From positions 1 to 23,086 of the IMG/VR virus record IMGVR_UViG_3300025383_000110: a stretch of DNA of 23,086 bases; one strand, written 5' to 3'. This document shows, piece after piece, positions 1,659-23,086 of this stretch (positions are counted from its first letter, which is position 1; every line of letters begins with the position of its first letter). This DNA is from a virus. The position numbers and the translations under genes were made by a program. The notes under the pieces are model-generated. The model was not told the DNA's origin. It did not search any database and was given only the letters and a program-made list of their open reading frames with translations.

Positions 1659-2993
1659 ATGTATTTAACAGAAGAACTACAAAAGAAATGGCATCCAGTT
1701 CTGGAGCATCCAGAATTAGACGCTATTAAAGACCCATACAAGAAGGCTGTTACTGCTCTTGTTTTGGAAAATCAACAACAAGCTATGGCTAAAGACCGTT
1801 CAGTATTGAACGAAACTGCTGACGCTGGTCCAACCAACGTTGCTGGTGGTGTTCAAAACTTTGACCCAATCTTGATTTCTTTAGTACGCCGTGCTTTGCC
1901 AAATCTTATCGCTTATGACGTTGCTGGTGTTCAACCAATGACTGGTCCTACTGGTTTGATTTTTGCAATGCGTGCTCGTTACAACACACAACAAGGTACA
2001 GAAGCTTTTTACAACGAAGCCAATACCATGTTCTCTGGTCAAGGTTCCGCAAACGGTGTATTCAATAACTACGGTTTCTTGGGTACAACTGCTACAGATA
2101 CAGCAAACTCTGCTGTTTCTAACGAAGCTGCTAACTCATTCACAACTGGTATTGGTCTACAAACCGCCGTTGCTGAACAGTTAGGTGCTGACGGTGCTAA
2201 CAGTTTCCAACAGATGGCCTTCTCTATTGAGAAAGTTACTGTAACTGCTCAGTCCCGTGCCTTGAAAGCTGAATACTCATTAGAACTCGCACAAGACTTG
2301 AAAGCAATTCATGGTCTTGATGCTGAAACAGAATTGTCTAACATTCTGTCTACTGAAATTCTTGCTGAAATCAACCGTGAAGTTATCCGTACAATCTATT
2401 TGTCCGCTGTTGTTGGCGCACAATACGGTACAGTAACACAAGGTTATTTCGACTTGGATACAGACTCTAACGGTCGTTGGTCTGTTGAGCGTTTCAAAGG
2501 TTTGATTTTCCAAATTGAACGTGATGCTAACGTAATTGCTAAGCAAACACGTCGTGGAAAAGGTAACGTATTGATTGTTTCTTCTGACGTAGCTTCTGCA
2601 ATGGCTATGGCAGGCGTTCTTTCATACACACCTGCTCTTCAAGCTGACTTGCAAGTAGATGACACAGGTAATACATTTGCCGGTATGTTACATGGTCGTA
2701 TCAAGGTTTACATCGACCCATACTATGGTGGTTATACTTCTAACCAAGAACTCGTAACTATCGGTTACAAAGGTTCTAGCCCATACGATGCTGGCTTGTT
2801 CTATTGCCCATACGTTCCATTACAAATGGTTCGTGCAGTTGACCAGTTTACATTCCAACCAAAGATTGGATTCAAGACTCGTTACGGTATGGTAGCAAAC
2901 CCATTTGCTGCTGGTTTGAATCAGAATAGCGGTATCATTCAACCACGCACCAACGTTTACTATCGTATTTTTGGCGTCAAGAATTTAATGTAA
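1659..2993 (+). CDS. 23: Major capsid protein gp23
   Basis: This 444-residue protein matches the T4 gp23 family that forms the hexamers of the capsid shell. Recognisable family segments include FDPILISLVRRALPNLIAYD (about residues 68-87), the following GVQPMTGPTG and the RARYN stretch. The C-terminal part has the family pattern of short aromatic-rich strands ending in an RTNVYYR segment. A sequence of the type cut by gp21 (L/I-x-E), LNE, ends at residue 52, giving a plausible propeptide. ATG 1659 follows a clean AAGGAG ribosome site. A strong terminator follows the stop, so the head operon ends here. It is somewhat shorter than T4 gp23 (521 residues). Confidence 0.95.
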   Translation: MYLTEELQKKWHPVLEHPELDAIKDPYKKAVTALVLENQQQAMAKDRSVLNETADAGPTNVAGGVQNFDPILISLVRRALPNLIAYDVAGVQPMTGPTGLIFAMRARYNTQQGTEAFYNEANTMFSGQGSANGVFNNYGFLGTTATDTANSAVSNEAANSFTTGIGLQTAVAEQLGADGANSFQQMAFSIEKVTVTAQSRALKAEYSLELAQDLKAIHGLDAETELSNILSTEILAEINREVIRTIYLSAVVGAQYGTVTQGYFDLDTDSNGRWSVERFKGLIFQIERDANVIAKQTRRGKGNVLIVSSDVASAMAMAGVLSYTPALQADLQVDDTGNTFAGMLHGRIKVYIDPYYGGYTSNQELVTIGYKGSSPYDAGLFYCPYVPLQMVRAVDQFTFQPKIGFKTRYGMVANPFAAGLNQNSGIIQPRTNVYYRIFGVKNLM

Positions 2994-3033: not shown

Positions 3034-3061
3034 AGAGACTCCTTCGGGAGTCTCTTTTTTT
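3034..3061 (+). terminator. Rho-independent terminator after gp23
   Basis: A perfect 9-bp stem (AGAGACTCC/GGAGTCTCT) is closed by a TTCG tetraloop and followed directly by a run of T. It ends the head-gene transcript. Confidence 0.95.
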
Positions 3062-3066
3062 ATGGC

Positions 3067-3073
3067 CTAAATA
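3067..3073 (+). promoter_or_regulatory. Possible late promoter variant (CTAAATA) before the tail gene
   Basis: CTAAATA lies directly after the gp23 terminator and only 5 bases before the ATG at 3079, so a transcript from it would start at or just inside the start codon. The same heptamer recurs at 21149 before a gene. The tail gene needs some promoter after so strong a terminator, but the motif is weak evidence. Confidence 0.3.
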
Positions 3074-16562: not shown

Positions 16563-16944
16563 TTTATTCAAAGAGATTGTACCTTCAATCTTACAAACTA
16601 AGAAAAATCCATTCCAAGATGAACATGATTATAAAGATTATGTACCTTTTGTAGTCAACCGAGCCTTGTCATTTCACCAAGACTGTGTTCTATATGCCAA
16701 CGAGATGAACATCAATCCAGCGTTGGATAAAGATATGCAGTATTTGTTTTATCTAAATACTATCAGGTCAATGAAACGGAAATTCCAACCGTGGCAGAAA
16801 ACGTTGGCCGACAAAGATATAGAAGCCGTTAAAAAATACTTTGGATATAATAGCCAAAAAGCCAAAGAAGCTTTGCGTATTCTAAATGATGACCAAATCG
16901 CTGAAATAAGAACAAAAACAGAAAAAGGCGGAGTGACCAAGTAA
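16555..16944 (+). CDS. 62: Clamp loader small subunit gp62
   Basis: This 129-residue protein lies between the gp44 cluster and regA, the T4 position of gp62. It is shorter than T4 gp62 (187 residues). Recognisable features are the DYKDYVPFVVNRALSFHQDC helix pair (about 26-45) and YLFYLNTIRSMKRKFQPWQK (about 65-84), the family's central KR-rich helix. The C-terminal part is Lys-rich and helical. gp62 forms the 4:1 complex with gp44 that loads gp45. The ATG has AAGGAA 9 bases upstream. The stop overlaps the RegA start. Confidence 0.8.
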   Translation: MPDLFKEIVPSILQTKKNPFQDEHDYKDYVPFVVNRALSFHQDCVLYANEMNINPALDKDMQYLFYLNTIRSMKRKFQPWQKTLADKDIEAVKKYFGYNSQKAKEALRILNDDQIAEIRTKTEKGGVTK

Positions 16945-17351
16945 TGATTTCAATTATAGATTTAGTTGAAGTTACATTAGGTGAAAAAGATGATTTCCTT
17001 AAAGTTCGTGAAACTCTTACACGCATCGGTGTAGCTTCCAAAAAAGATAGAATACTCTACCAGTCTTGCCATATTTTACATAAGCAAGGCAAGTATTACA
17101 TCGTACACTTTAAAGAACTGTTTGCTTTAGATGGTAAACCTACTGATATCTCAGAAAATGACTTGTCTCGTAGGAATGCCATTGCCAAGTTGTTACAAGA
17201 TTGGGGACTGGTAAAAGTGGTAAATCAAAAACAGATTGAAACACCAGCACCAATCTTTCTTTCCCAAATTAAGATCCTGTCTCATAAAGAGAAGGATGGT
17301 TGGGAATTGACACCAAAATACAATATTGGTAAGAAACCAGGTTCTTATTGA
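16944..17351 (+). CDS. regA: Translational repressor RegA
   Basis: This 135-residue protein is a close match to T4 RegA (122 residues), which binds start regions of early mRNAs, including those for gp44 and gp45, and blocks ribosomes. Diagnostic segments are DDFLKVRETLTRIG, then LYQSCHILHKQGKYYIVHFKELF (split by a short turn), RRNAIAKLLQDWGLVKVV and the C-terminal WELTPKYNIGKK. It closes the replication cluster as in T4. The gene starts at TAATG with GGAG 13 bases upstream. In T4 the DNA polymerase gene 43 follows; here Hsp20 does. Confidence 0.95.
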   Translation: MISIIDLVEVTLGEKDDFLKVRETLTRIGVASKKDRILYQSCHILHKQGKYYIVHFKELFALDGKPTDISENDLSRRNAIAKLLQDWGLVKVVNQKQIETPAPIFLSQIKILSHKEKDGWELTPKYNIGKKPGSY

Positions 17352-17377
17352 CAAAGTAGTATAAATACTGATACAAT
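17348..17377 (+). promoter_or_regulatory. Dual promoter for Hsp20: sigma-70-type with a late motif in its spacer
   Basis: TTGACA, an 18-base spacer, then TACAAT preceded by TGA (an extended -10). The spacer itself contains an exact T4 late element TATAAATA (17360-17367). Predicted starts are near 17384 (sigma-70) and 17374 (late), so both transcripts would carry the thermometer-like leader. The -35 overlaps the regA stop. Confidence 0.7.
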
Positions 17378-17381
17378 TATG

Positions 17382-17441
17382 TGCCGTGCTCATTTGAGGC
17401 GGCAGTTTTGATAACCTCGCTTAAATTAAGGAGAAAATATG
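17382..17441 (+). promoter_or_regulatory. ROSE-like RNA thermometer in the Hsp20 leader
   Basis: Two hairpins fill the leader. The first is TGCCG/CGGCA (17382-17404) with an inner CTC-ATTT-GAG. The second is CTCGCTTA-AAT-TAAGGAG (17416-17433): CTC pairs with GAG and CTTA pairs with TAAG, leaving G17419 bulged. The 3' strand is the whole ribosome site AAGGAG, five bases before the ATG. The 5' strand contains UCGCU, fitting the ROSE signature U(U/C)GCU whose bulged G lies opposite the ribosome site. ROSE elements control small heat shock genes, and the gene here is Hsp20. Melting with heat would free translation. Structure was folded by eye. Confidence 0.7.
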
Positions 17442-17906
17442 ACAAGCGCAACTTTATCTTTATTCCCACAATGGGCTTCCCTCCATAAGTCTTTGGATCC
17501 ATTCACAGTTGGTTTTGATGATGTATTAGACCAAATCCGTGATATCTCTGAGACAGTCGCCAAGGCAACACCTGGTTACCCTCCATATAACATCAAACAA
17601 GTCAAAGAAAACAAGTATGTCATTGAAATGGCAGTTGCTGGTTTTGCTAAGACGGACATTGAAGTTACCTTAGAAGGTAATAAGTTGGTTATCCGTGGTG
17701 CAGCTGTTGAAAGTGATGAAGATCCATCTAGTTTCATTTATAAAGGCATTGCTAATCGCAGTTTCAATCGTACCTTTACTCTTGCCGATAAGGTAGAGAT
17801 TAAAGATGCCGAAATTGCAAATGGTATGCTTAAAGTCTGGCTAGAAAATATGGTAAAAGCACAGGATATGGTGAAGAAGATTGCCGTAAAATCCAAAGAT
17901 GAATAA
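17439..17906 (+). CDS. hsp20: Small heat shock protein Hsp20
   Basis: This 155-residue alpha-crystallin-type chaperone binds unfolding proteins without ATP. The conserved domain runs from about residue 45 to 140. It starts YPPYNIKQVKENKYVIEMAV, then has AGFAKTDIEVTLEGNKLVI, the RSFNRTFTLADKVEIKDAEI stretch and NGMLKVWLE. The C-terminal tail is short and ends with charged residues. Hsp20 genes are common in T4-like phages of cyanobacteria and other aquatic hosts. Its leader holds a candidate RNA thermometer. Two overlapping promoter types precede it, suggesting expression both early and late. A 21-codon frame overlaps its stop. Confidence 0.95.
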   Translation: MTSATLSLFPQWASLHKSLDPFTVGFDDVLDQIRDISETVAKATPGYPPYNIKQVKENKYVIEMAVAGFAKTDIEVTLEGNKLVIRGAAVESDEDPSSFIYKGIANRSFNRTFTLADKVEIKDAEIANGMLKVWLENMVKAQDMVKKIAVKSKDE

Positions 17907-19648: not shown

Positions 19649-19722
19649 GCCCTTGTAGTTAAATGGTATAACAGTTGATTTGTAATCATCAATTCGCAGT
19701 TCGATTCTGTGCTGGGGCACCA
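19649..19722 (+). tRNA. tRNA-Thr (anticodon UGU)
   Basis: A full cloverleaf with encoded CCA. The acceptor is GCCCTTG/CTGGGGC with one T-T mismatch and one wobble. The D arm carries GG, and the T loop is TTCGATT. The anticodon loop is TTTGTAA with TGT at 19681-19683. The anticodon stem has one T-T mismatch (19675/19689), so the molecule is slightly degenerate. It would read ACA and related Thr codons. Confidence 0.88.
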
Positions 19723-19744
19723 TCAAATATACCAAACTTTTGTA

Positions 19745-19773
19745 TTGACTTCTTATAATTAAGATGTTATAGT
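19745..19773 (+). promoter_or_regulatory. Sigma-70-type promoter inside the tRNA region
   Basis: TTGACT, a 17-base spacer and TATAGT preceded by TGT (an extended -10). The predicted start near 19780 lies 3 bases before the tRNA-like element, so that element would form the 5' end of the tRNA-Gly/tRNA-Asn transcript. Confidence 0.75.
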
Positions 19774-19782
19774 ATTACATAT

Positions 19783-19849
19783 GCGGAGAGTAATAGTACG
19801 ATAAAAGATACCATCTTTTGTTAGGTGAGCAAAGCATCACTCCGCTCCA
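19783..19849 (+). ncRNA. tRNA-like element (67 nt) abutting tRNA-Gly
   Basis: GCGGAG pairs with CTCCGC and is followed by T-CCA, like a tRNA acceptor end. Three hairpins lie inside. GTA/TAC is in the D-arm position. AAAAG/CTTTT has a 7-base loop ATACCAT in the anticodon position (ACC at the anticodon site, preceded by T). GTGAGC-AAA-GC-A-TCAC is in the T-arm position. It lacks the GG of the D loop and the TTCGA of the T loop, and is short, so it is not a normal tRNA. A decayed tRNA or a processing signal are possible. Confidence 0.55.
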
Positions 19850-19850
19850 T

Positions 19851-19924
19851 GCGGGATTCGTTTAATGGTAGGACTTCAGTTTTCCAAACTGATAACATTG
19901 GTTCGATTCCAATATCCCGCTCCA
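19851..19924 (+). tRNA. tRNA-Gly (anticodon UCC)
   Basis: A perfect 7-bp acceptor (GCGGGAT/ATCCCGC), discriminator T and encoded CCA. The anticodon stem TCAGT/ACTGA is perfect, with loop TTTCCAA and TCC at 19883-19885. The T loop is TTCGATT. It reads GGA and GGG codons. Confidence 0.95.
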
Positions 19925-19931
19925 GTTTTAT

Positions 19932-20007
19932 TCCGAAGTAGCTCAGTTGGTAGAGTAGATGACTGTTAATCATTTGGTCGCTGGTTCGAGCCCAGCCTTT
20001 GGAGCCA
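19932..20007 (+). tRNA. tRNA-Asn (anticodon GUU)
   Basis: The acceptor is TCCGAAG/CTTTGGA (one wobble) with discriminator G and encoded CCA. The D arm is GCTC-AGTTGGTA-GAGT, the anticodon loop CTGTTAA has GTT at 19965-19967, and the T loop is TTCGAGC. It lies 7 bases after tRNA-Gly. Its 3' CCA overlaps the first bases of the closing helix of RNA candidate B. Confidence 0.95.
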
Positions 20008-20221
20008 ATTATTGAGGATGTGCGGTAAAGGATAAGCAATCCTAACTGTCAAGGAACATCAACACCCCGGCGGTATGATCCAATATCTGGAGATTTTCCG
20101 TATGCTGAGAACGGAAGGAAGCTGTAAGCTGGGGTAGGCGGTGGTAGAGTTCGAAAGAATGGCCTTAAACGCTTAATCTACGACACGCCTATTAAACACA
20201 CGACAGTATCCTCAATAATTG
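20006..20221 (+). ncRNA. Structured RNA candidate B (216 nt) downstream of tRNA-Asn
   Basis: A perfect 14-bp helix closes it (20006-20019 with 20208-20221, core ATTGAGGAT/ATCCTCAAT). Directly inside, ACTGTC (20045-20050) pairs with GACAGT (20202-20207). Between these helices on the 5' side is hairpin AGGAT-AAGCA-ATCCT (20029-20043), making a three-way junction. Further helices are ACCCCGGC/GCTGGGGT (20064-20071 with 20128-20135), TCCA/TGGA (20079/20091), TTCCG/CGGAA (20096/20116), AGGCG/CGCCT (20136/20190) and GTAGA/TCTAC (20144/20181). There is also a GAAA-tetraloop hairpin at 20149-20160. No reading frame fits, and no family is recognised. Confidence 0.75.
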
Positions 20222-20316
20222 ATTTTCTTAATAACAATCATCAAAACATATCATAAAGGCAATAACTAAAATTTATTGATTTGAGATATACATAATATTT
20301 TAACTATGGAGTAAAT

Positions 20317-20775
20317 ATGTCTATTACATTACAAAACCTTGAGAGTGCATTGGCTGGCGAATCAATGGCTCATATCAAGTATCGTTATTTCGCCAAAATT
20401 GCTCGTGAAGAAGGCTTTGAAGAAGTAGCAAAGCATTTTGAACATACAGCAAACCAAGAAATTCTCCACGCTTGGGGTCACCTCGAATTACTCATCGGTA
20501 AACCATCTACAAAAGAATGTTTAGAAAAAGCCATTGAAGGTGAAACATATGAGTTCACTACAATGTATCCTCAGTTCTTAGAAAATGCTATCAGCGAAAA
20601 AAATGCTCAAGCATCTACTGAATTCGTTGAACAAATTTCTGAATCAAAAGAACACGCTGAACAATTCAAAGCAAAGTTGGCAGTATTAGAAAAAGCAGAG
20701 AAGCGTTTCAAGGCACTTAAAGGTGTTGAAGAACGTCATGCTAATGCCTATAAACAAATTTTGGAGACACTATAA
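20317..20775 (+). CDS. rbr: Rubrerythrin (diiron domain only)
   Basis: This 152-residue four-helix-bundle protein belongs to the rubrerythrin family, which reduces hydrogen peroxide using a diiron site. The first half opens LESALAGESMAHIKYRYFA with ligand E15, then E48-x2-H51 (NQEILHAWGH). The second half has GETYEFTTMYPQFLENA (E76/E79) and E109-x3-H113 (SESKEHAEQF). It lacks the C-terminal rubredoxin domain of classical rubrerythrin, but a separate rubredoxin gene starts on its stop codon (TAATG). The ATG has GGAG 6 bases upstream. Rubrerythrin is unusual in a phage. Protection of the infected cell from peroxide is inferred. Confidence 0.9.
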   Translation: MSITLQNLESALAGESMAHIKYRYFAKIAREEGFEEVAKHFEHTANQEILHAWGHLELLIGKPSTKECLEKAIEGETYEFTTMYPQFLENAISEKNAQASTEFVEQISESKEHAEQFKAKLAVLEKAEKRFKALKGVEERHANAYKQILETL

Positions 20776-20903
20776 TGGAATATTATCGTTGCGTGGTCTG
20801 TGGCCACATTTTATCCGTAGAAGATTGGAATAGTTTGCCTGATGAAGTGCCTTGTCCTGAATGTGGTGTTAGTAAGTGGGACTATGAGTTGGTGAAAGAA
20901 TAA
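20775..20903 (+). CDS. Rubredoxin-type iron protein (42 residues)
   Basis: The product has the two iron-binding pairs of rubredoxin: C6-V-V-C9-G-H near the start and C27-P-E-C30-G-V-S-K-W-D near the end. It starts MEYYRCVVCGH, with a Leu-Pro stretch between the pairs. It is the size of the rubredoxin domain that ends classical rubrerythrin, and its start overlaps the diiron gene's stop. The two proteins probably work as an electron-transfer pair, as separated parts of rubrerythrin. Confidence 0.88.
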   Translation: MEYYRCVVCGHILSVEDWNSLPDEVPCPECGVSKWDYELVKE

Positions 20904-20913
20904 GTAAAGGTAT

Positions 20914-20988
20914 AGCGGAGTAGCTCAGAGGTAGAGCATTGGACTCATAATCCAGGGGGCGTTGGTTCGATTCCATCCTCCGCAACCA
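20914..20988 (+). tRNA. tRNA with anticodon CAU (Met, initiator Met or Ile2)
   Basis: D arm GCTC-AGAGGTA-GAGC, anticodon loop CTCATAA with CAT at 20946-20948, T loop TTCGATT, discriminator A and encoded CCA. With canonical spacing, base 1 is A and base 72 is A, so the first acceptor pair is a mismatch, a feature of bacterial initiator tRNAs. However, the anticodon stem has G-C, G-C, A-T instead of three G-C pairs, and the 11-24 pair is C-G. The T stem has one mismatch. The amino acid identity is therefore open. Confidence 0.9.
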
Positions 20989-22416: not shown

Positions 22417-23086
22417 TTACTTAGAAGTAGCACGATAAGTACCATCCCAATTGGCTGGAAGACCTTCTTCCAGCCTTTCTAACATATTCTTGTAGTATTG
22501 ATTCAATTCATTGTTTTCTTCAATCAATTCTTTACAGAGTTTCTTTGCTTTAGTCCAATCACCAGAGTAATAACAATCTAAGTACGTTTGATGTTTATAA
22601 TTAGGTTTACCTAAAGTAAATATCTTTATACCTTCTGTTTTACCTTTGACAGCGATACAATCTAACTCAACAACCGGGAATTCTTCTTTGACTTGTTCGG
22701 CTGTGTGGGGTCCAAGAACAATTCTGACACCATATGGTTTACTCTGTCCTTCAAGGCGGGATGCAAGATTAACAACATCTCCAAGACAAGTGTAATCAAA
22801 ACGCTGGTCAGAACCCATGTTACCAACAACAACGGTACCAGTATTAATGCCAAGACCCATCCCAAAAGCTGGAATACCCTCATCGGTAATTTCTTTATTA
22901 AATTCATCTAAACTCTCCATCATTTGTAATGCAGTTTTAACGGCCTTCTTTGCGTGATTTGGTTCATCAACAGGAGCATTCCAAAATGCCATCTGTGCAT
23001 CACCAATATATTTGTCTAATGTACCATTGTTTTCTAAAATCTTTCTCGTCATGGCGGTCATATAACGATTCATAATCTTAGTTAAT
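22417..23086 (-). CDS. Class III adenylate/guanylate cyclase, C-terminal part (5' cut by window)
   Basis: This gene is on the minus strand and stays open to the window edge. The last 223 residues are visible; the ATG at 23073 is probably internal. It has the class III cyclase core: GTLDKYIGDAQMAFWNAP (second metal-binding Asp), GLGINTGTVVVGNMGSDQRF, the DYTCLGDVVNLASRLEGQ stretch with the transition-state Asn and Arg, and the C-terminal KGKTEGIKIFTL. The first metal Asp should lie beyond the window. The extra C-terminus (ANWDGTYRATSK) resembles that of proteobacterial CHASE2-type cyclases. It would make cyclic AMP or GMP. It meets its neighbour stop to stop with no terminator between. Such an enzyme is unusual in a phage. 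Confidence 0.9.
   Translation of the reverse strand, partial: LTKIMNRYMTAMTRKILENNGTLDKYIGDAQMAFWNAPVDEPNHAKKAVKTALQMMESLDEFNKEITDEGIPAFGMGLGINTGTVVVGNMGSDQRFDYTCLGDVVNLASRLEGQSKPYGVRIVLGPHTAEQVKEEFPVVELDCIAVKGKTEGIKIFTLGKPNYKHQTYLDCYYSGDWTKAKKLCKELIEENNELNQYYKNMLERLEEGLPANWDGTYRATSK

Follow-up and report, generated by a model that had tools for sequence, protein, structure and literature searches.

A short two-hairpin leader of the ROSE type before hsp20 in T4-like phages, a probable RNA thermometer

The hsp20 leader of T4-like phages probably acts as a short, two-hairpin RNA thermometer of the ROSE type, in which the second hairpin (HP2) hides the Shine-Dalgarno sequence (SD) until warming; the probability of this reading is put at about 0.82. 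The leader studied here lies in a stretch of viral DNA of 23,086 nucleotides (IMG/VR record IMGVR_UViG_3300025383_000110, positions 1 to 23,086; "the window"). Its structure is conserved and covaries among phages, is specific to hsp20 leaders, and matches the ROSE architecture.

The hsp20 leader and its surroundings

The window is a contig of a T4-like phage, encoding Gp23 (PF07068), a Gp44-type clamp loader, RegA and Hsp20. The nearest named phage by major capsid protein is Methylophilales phage Melnitz, at 64.7% identity. As the initial annotation had stated, the gene downstream of the leader encodes a small heat shock protein, a PF00011 match being present directly 3' of the leader (Table 1). 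Elsewhere in the window, a Rubrerythrin-like protein (PF02915; 20317-20775) is encoded amid tRNA genes (four tRNAs, 19649-20985), and an ORF on the minus strand (22417-23073) looks, by eye, like a nucleotide cyclase catalytic domain.

Table 1. Features in and around the hsp20 leader of the window
Feature	Position	Strand	Basis
regA, phage translational repressor, directly 5' of hsp20	16944..17351	+	Pfam PF01818, E 7e-45
sigma-70-like promoter, TTGACA-18-TACAAT	17348..17377	+	consensus scan, 11/12 match; 0.8 expected by chance in the stretch
T4-late-promoter-like box TATAAATA	17360..17367	+	sequence; 2 in the window vs 2.3 expected by chance
hairpin 1 (HP1)	17382..17404	+	fold: UGCCGU/GCGGCA outer stem, bulged G17388, CUC/GAG inner stem, AUUU loop
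hairpin 2 (HP2), proposed thermosensor	17416..17433	+	fold and comparison: CUC-G-CUUA AAU UAAGGAG, SD paired, bulged G17419
Shine-Dalgarno AAGGAG, 5 nt before start codon	17428..17433	+	sequence
hsp20 gene, 155 aa small heat shock protein	17439..17906	+	Pfam PF00011, E 9e-17

The leader runs from the promoter boxes through HP1, a spacer, and HP2, whose 3' arm is the ribosome site, to the ATG start codon at 17439-17441. The initial annotation placed a single hairpin in the interval 17382-17441; HP2 is as described there, and the single hairpin gives way to two, HP1 also lying inside the interval. HP2 consists of CUC (17416-17418), the bulged G (17419), CUUA (17420-17423), an AAU loop (17424-17426) and UAAGGAG (17427-17433). 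Both the pairing of AAGGAG in a stem with one bulged G and the fit of the opposing strand, UCGCU, to the ROSE signature U(U/C)GCU, which had been read from the sequence earlier, are confirmed.

The 17382-17441 leader has a minimum free energy of -16.0 kcal/mol (z = -2.1), and HP2 has an energy of -3.9 kcal/mol with its flanks (z = -2.1) and -2.4 kcal/mol alone; across phages, the median for HP2 is -1.7 kcal/mol. As z-scores from one sequence, these are only suggestive, and it is the comparative test that settles the pairing. Since HP2 is weak, repression may be leaky. A longer fold that extends into the coding region is not unusual and contains a rival pairing, CGCUU/AAGCG, with codons 2-4. 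This pairing could open the SD in the window; it is peculiar to the window variant and is absent in relatives.

The sigma-70-like promoter overlaps the T4-late-like box TATAAATA, and its predicted start, a consensus match rather than proof, falls at about 17384, the foot of HP1. Of 71 relatives, 60 have a [TA]AAATA box no more than 40 nt 5' of HP1, compared with a background of 5.7%. Given this box and the sigma-70-like start near the foot of HP1, the element may constitute the whole 5' leader. A scan of the window for intrinsic terminators found none, and HP1 was thus rejected as a terminator.

Conservation and covariation among phage leaders

Protein similarity was the sole criterion for gathering Hsp20 homologues from viral contigs, their leaders being unseen; others came from annotated isolates. 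A bulged-G hairpin over the SD is present in 86 of the 92 unique hsp20 leaders, and an A, C or U bulge in none; the same hairpin is found in 2 of 194 neighbouring-gene leaders of the same loci and in 2.1% of shuffles. For hsp20 versus neighbouring-gene leaders, Fisher's test gives p ~6e-63, not corrected for relatedness; the leaders are related, and so their counts do not represent independent events. Of the six exceptions, four keep the motif on inspection (one has a mis-set start and three a short inner stem), and the other two, from Vibrio phages, are without the element. Relatives that keep Hsp20 and lose the pairing without compensation, which the initial annotation had named as evidence against a thermometer, amount to two Vibrio phages, distant from the window.

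Two more scans and eight more isolates enlarged the set to 215 unique phage leaders, nearly all obtained by protein similarity alone, and the bulged-G hairpin lies over the ribosome site in 211 of them. TCGCT or TTGCT is present in most of the 211. Two of the four leaders without the motif, those of Callisto and SCTP-2, have, by eye, the G in a shifted register; a scan with the Callisto-type Hsp20 found no relatives. Named isolates with the element include S-PM2, P-SSM4, syn9, HTVC008M and Melnitz. For Prochlorococcus phage P-HM2 (L461:116-188), the annotated Hsp20 start is 24 codons 5' of the likely ATG at 188, and the ROSE leader itself makes up this annotated extension. Campylobacter phage A18a (L458, MG065686, an unverified record) was excluded; its apparent enterobacterial ibpA with a ROSE_2 element is probably host contamination.

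In 10 long relative contigs the motif is present exactly once per contig, and a reversed-pattern control gave zero. When viral contigs were scanned by DNA pattern only, about half or more of the loci were hsp20 starts, including very divergent marine ones. A pattern scan of genome contigs yielded 80 matches, 20 of them with a downstream reading frame, and 5 of these 20 were Hsp20/Ibp; the remaining matches look like chance and were set aside.

In an initial MAFFT alignment of 30 diverse leaders the SD ends were wrongly aligned, and a seed alignment with a covariance model took its place. The bulged-G form of HP1 is the best hairpin in 82 of 86 leaders, and seven of its eight pairs have changes on both sides. 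The HP1 covariation score is 0.416, versus 0.124 for shuffled alignments, and 96% of HP1 cells are paired, versus ~50% when the partners are slid, the alignment having been fitted to the structure, which favours the 0.416 and 96% figures. The 5' arm of HP2 is nearly invariant in the core set, and its covariation therefore rests on few clades. A large S-CAM4-like clade has GUC-G-CUU..AAG-GAC, in which the SD itself is AAGGAC; the P-HM2 clade has a compensated CUC-G-CUA..UAG-GAG; L569-L571 have a compensated GAC-G-CUU..GUC; and L361-L368 have a rearranged AACUGUCU/AGGAGGUU. All compensated HP2 variants retain the single bulged G. Compensatory changes among related Hsp20 leaders, proposed at the outset as a check, are thus found both in HP1 and in clades of HP2.

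Relation to ROSE elements and other thermometers

Several features that characterize ROSE elements are present: location in the 5' leader of a small heat shock gene, pairing of U(U/C)GCU with the SD opposite a bulged G, two to four stem-loops with the SD in the 3' one, and a structure that is conserved and covaries in homologues. The curated Rfam cut-off for ROSE_2 or ROSE_3 is missed by the window, and the covariance search suggested by the initial annotation gave no match of the window element to the Rfam ROSE models even at E<=10. Relatives score 19-35 bits with ROSE_3 (Melnitz 34.1 bits, E 5e-4; L344 35.1; C48C1 26.8; others 21.8 and 19), with E values as good as 5e-4 to 7e-4, below the cut-off of 43 bits. 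Only one passes, the 338-kb jumbo-phage contig L166, with 43.5 bits exactly at its hsp20 leader. No phage leader matched ROSE_2.

In the opposite direction, a covariance model (R1) trained on nine phage leaders recovers the window element (27 bits, E 2e-6) and also bacterial elements, namely the leader of a Rhodospirillaceae hsp20 (35.9 bits) and those of Kosakonia ibpA/ibpB (14-20 bits). An R1 match in L259 overlaps a ROSE_2 call by Rfam; L259 ("Chryseobacterium sp. 18061") carries an enterobacterial-type ibpA and ibpB with the ROSE_2 match and is probably a mixed or misnamed assembly. A second R1 match in the window (3034-3071, 15.8 bits) is not ROSE; it resembles a terminator, having a UUCG hairpin and a U run.

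The phage element resembles ROSE_2 (RF01832, enterobacterial ibpA) in having two hairpins with one bulged G each and an HP1 of 5 pairs, a bulged G and 3 pairs. The ROSE_2 HP2, CUC-G-CUG AUUU CAGGAG, is close to its window counterpart; however, the phage HP2 has CUU/AAG as its inner stem and is weaker (-2.4 vs -4.1 kcal/mol alone). The short two-hairpin ROSE_3 (RF02523), taken here to correspond to the ibpA elements that Krajewski 2013 described in Pseudomonas, also lies before a small heat shock gene. Its HP1, AUGCC..GGGU, carries a bulged G. In its HP2, CUcGCU faces the SD; the U(U/C)GCU motif and the bulged G in this position are shared with the phage. Unlike ROSE_3, the element resides in phage genomes, its HP1 sequence is largely free to vary, and no sigma-32 context was seen. 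Architecture, conservation and compensatory changes speak for the original assignment to ROSE, as do cross-detection with bacterial ROSE and the ROSE_3 signal in relatives, and the element represents a phage branch of the family that is probably functional.

Other thermometers share single aspects with this leader. The Synechocystis hsp17 thermometer also precedes a small heat shock gene, and cyanobacteria are hosts of many of these phages; however, it is a single hairpin with a 1x3 internal bulge, its start codon is paired as well, and it is not described as ROSE (PMC4477652). Temperature-responsive phage leaders are exemplified by blyA of prophage SP-beta, a fourU element before another gene (PMC10586365), and by lambda cIII, which uses an alternative fold (PMC4166951), but neither is ROSE or concerns a chaperone. 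According to a published account, ROSE invariably goes with small heat shock genes of bacteria (PMC4166951). A search limited to openly accessible papers turned up neither a phage ROSE element nor a thermometer preceding a phage hsp20, in line with the initial annotation, which knew of none. ROSE itself is known, and the known phage thermometers are of other kinds; the element is therefore classed as a new branch, in phages, of an established family.

Similar elements were observed before other genes. In viral contig L099, a bulged-G SD hairpin (2477-2514, minus strand; R1 19.2 bits, E 0.0013) precedes the peroxiredoxin gene ahpC (1907-2470), which is followed by an AhpF-like gene. In L162 (741-1018, minus strand), a ROSE-like element lies before a 75-aa ORF without a Pfam match, followed by Hsp20, with regA upstream, and may therefore control a two-gene unit. 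The same motif, with a shorter HP1, precedes an 84-aa protein in viral contigs L124 (4305-4341, minus strand) and L147 (2089-2126); the L147 copy of the protein has no Pfam match.

Thermal behaviour, alternatives and significance

By analogy with ROSE biology, HP2 would hide the ribosome site at low temperature, while the bulged G opposite the SD would keep the hairpin only marginally stable, so that warming would open it and Hsp20 would be translated. HP1, a stable hairpin, may organise the 5' end or protect it. With less confidence than these thermometer steps, it is suggested that transcription begins with HP1 or just 5' of it, driven by either the sigma-70-like or the late-promoter-like box; the timing of hsp20 expression during infection is likewise a weaker proposal. 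Two-hairpin elements of the same shape before Pseudomonas ibpA have been shown to be thermometers, in which HP2 melts between 25 and 42 C and HP1 does not, and deletion of the bulged G blocks opening, alone in P. aeruginosa and together with U38C in P. putida (PMC3669281). The phage HP2 is expected to behave in the same way; the literature search returned no temperature experiment with a phage leader. Computation gives the bulged G a cost of ~3.8 kcal/mol (HP2 is -2.4 with the G and -6.2 without it). Since the hairpins are kept in nearly every hsp20-carrying phage examined, these phages probably make the chaperone only when warm.

A conserved hairpin over the SD could instead bind a protein of the phage or its host, such as RegA, and answer to that protein rather than to temperature. 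The regA gene lies directly 5' of hsp20 here and in several relatives, and the arm of HP2 hardly varies in sequence, which is common in protein-binding sites. However, the same element is found before bacterial hsp20, ibpA and ibpB and in the 338-kb jumbo-phage contig, the sequence variants preserve pairing and bulge rather than sequence, and the single copy in each of the 10 long relative contigs lies only before hsp20, whereas RegA has many targets. A RegA site was therefore rejected on specificity, the motif not being shared among several phage genes, and on its occurrence in bacteria, and a protein site in general is considered unlikely.

Equally improbable is a static hairpin that reduces translation of Hsp20 whatever the temperature, or holds it back until ribosomes are plentiful, with no useful thermal switch. 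Model energies do predict little opening of the SD, its computed accessibility rising only slightly up to 42 C, but real ROSE_2 elements give an equally flat curve, and such energy-based curves therefore do not discriminate. A plain hairpin, moreover, would not need the always-conserved bulged G in both hairpins, and closely matching bacterial elements are proven thermometers (PMC3669281). That a purine-rich SD pairs with its surroundings by chance might be suggested by a single-sequence z of only ~-2 and by the ordinary longer fold, but this is refuted by the conservation, the compensatory changes and the controls, and has a negligible likelihood.

If the leader is indeed a ROSE-type thermometer, the commonest thermometer class would extend from bacteria to viruses, including cyanophages, pelagiphages, methylophages and jumbo phages. 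The finding matters because hsp20 is reported to be a core gene of marine cyanobacterial myoviruses (PMC3037559); the literature searched yielded nothing on its regulation. A bolder and quite tentative proposal, which we consider rather doubtful as a whole, is that a large, long-maintained phage ROSE lineage lets temperature directly govern a core gene of abundant marine and freshwater T4-like phages. The control would be tuned to cool water and would make infection itself sense warming, and elements of the same kind would also stand before other phage stress genes (ahpC in L099). A thermometer in these leaders would provide a direct molecular handle on the effects of temperature on phage infection in lakes and oceans.
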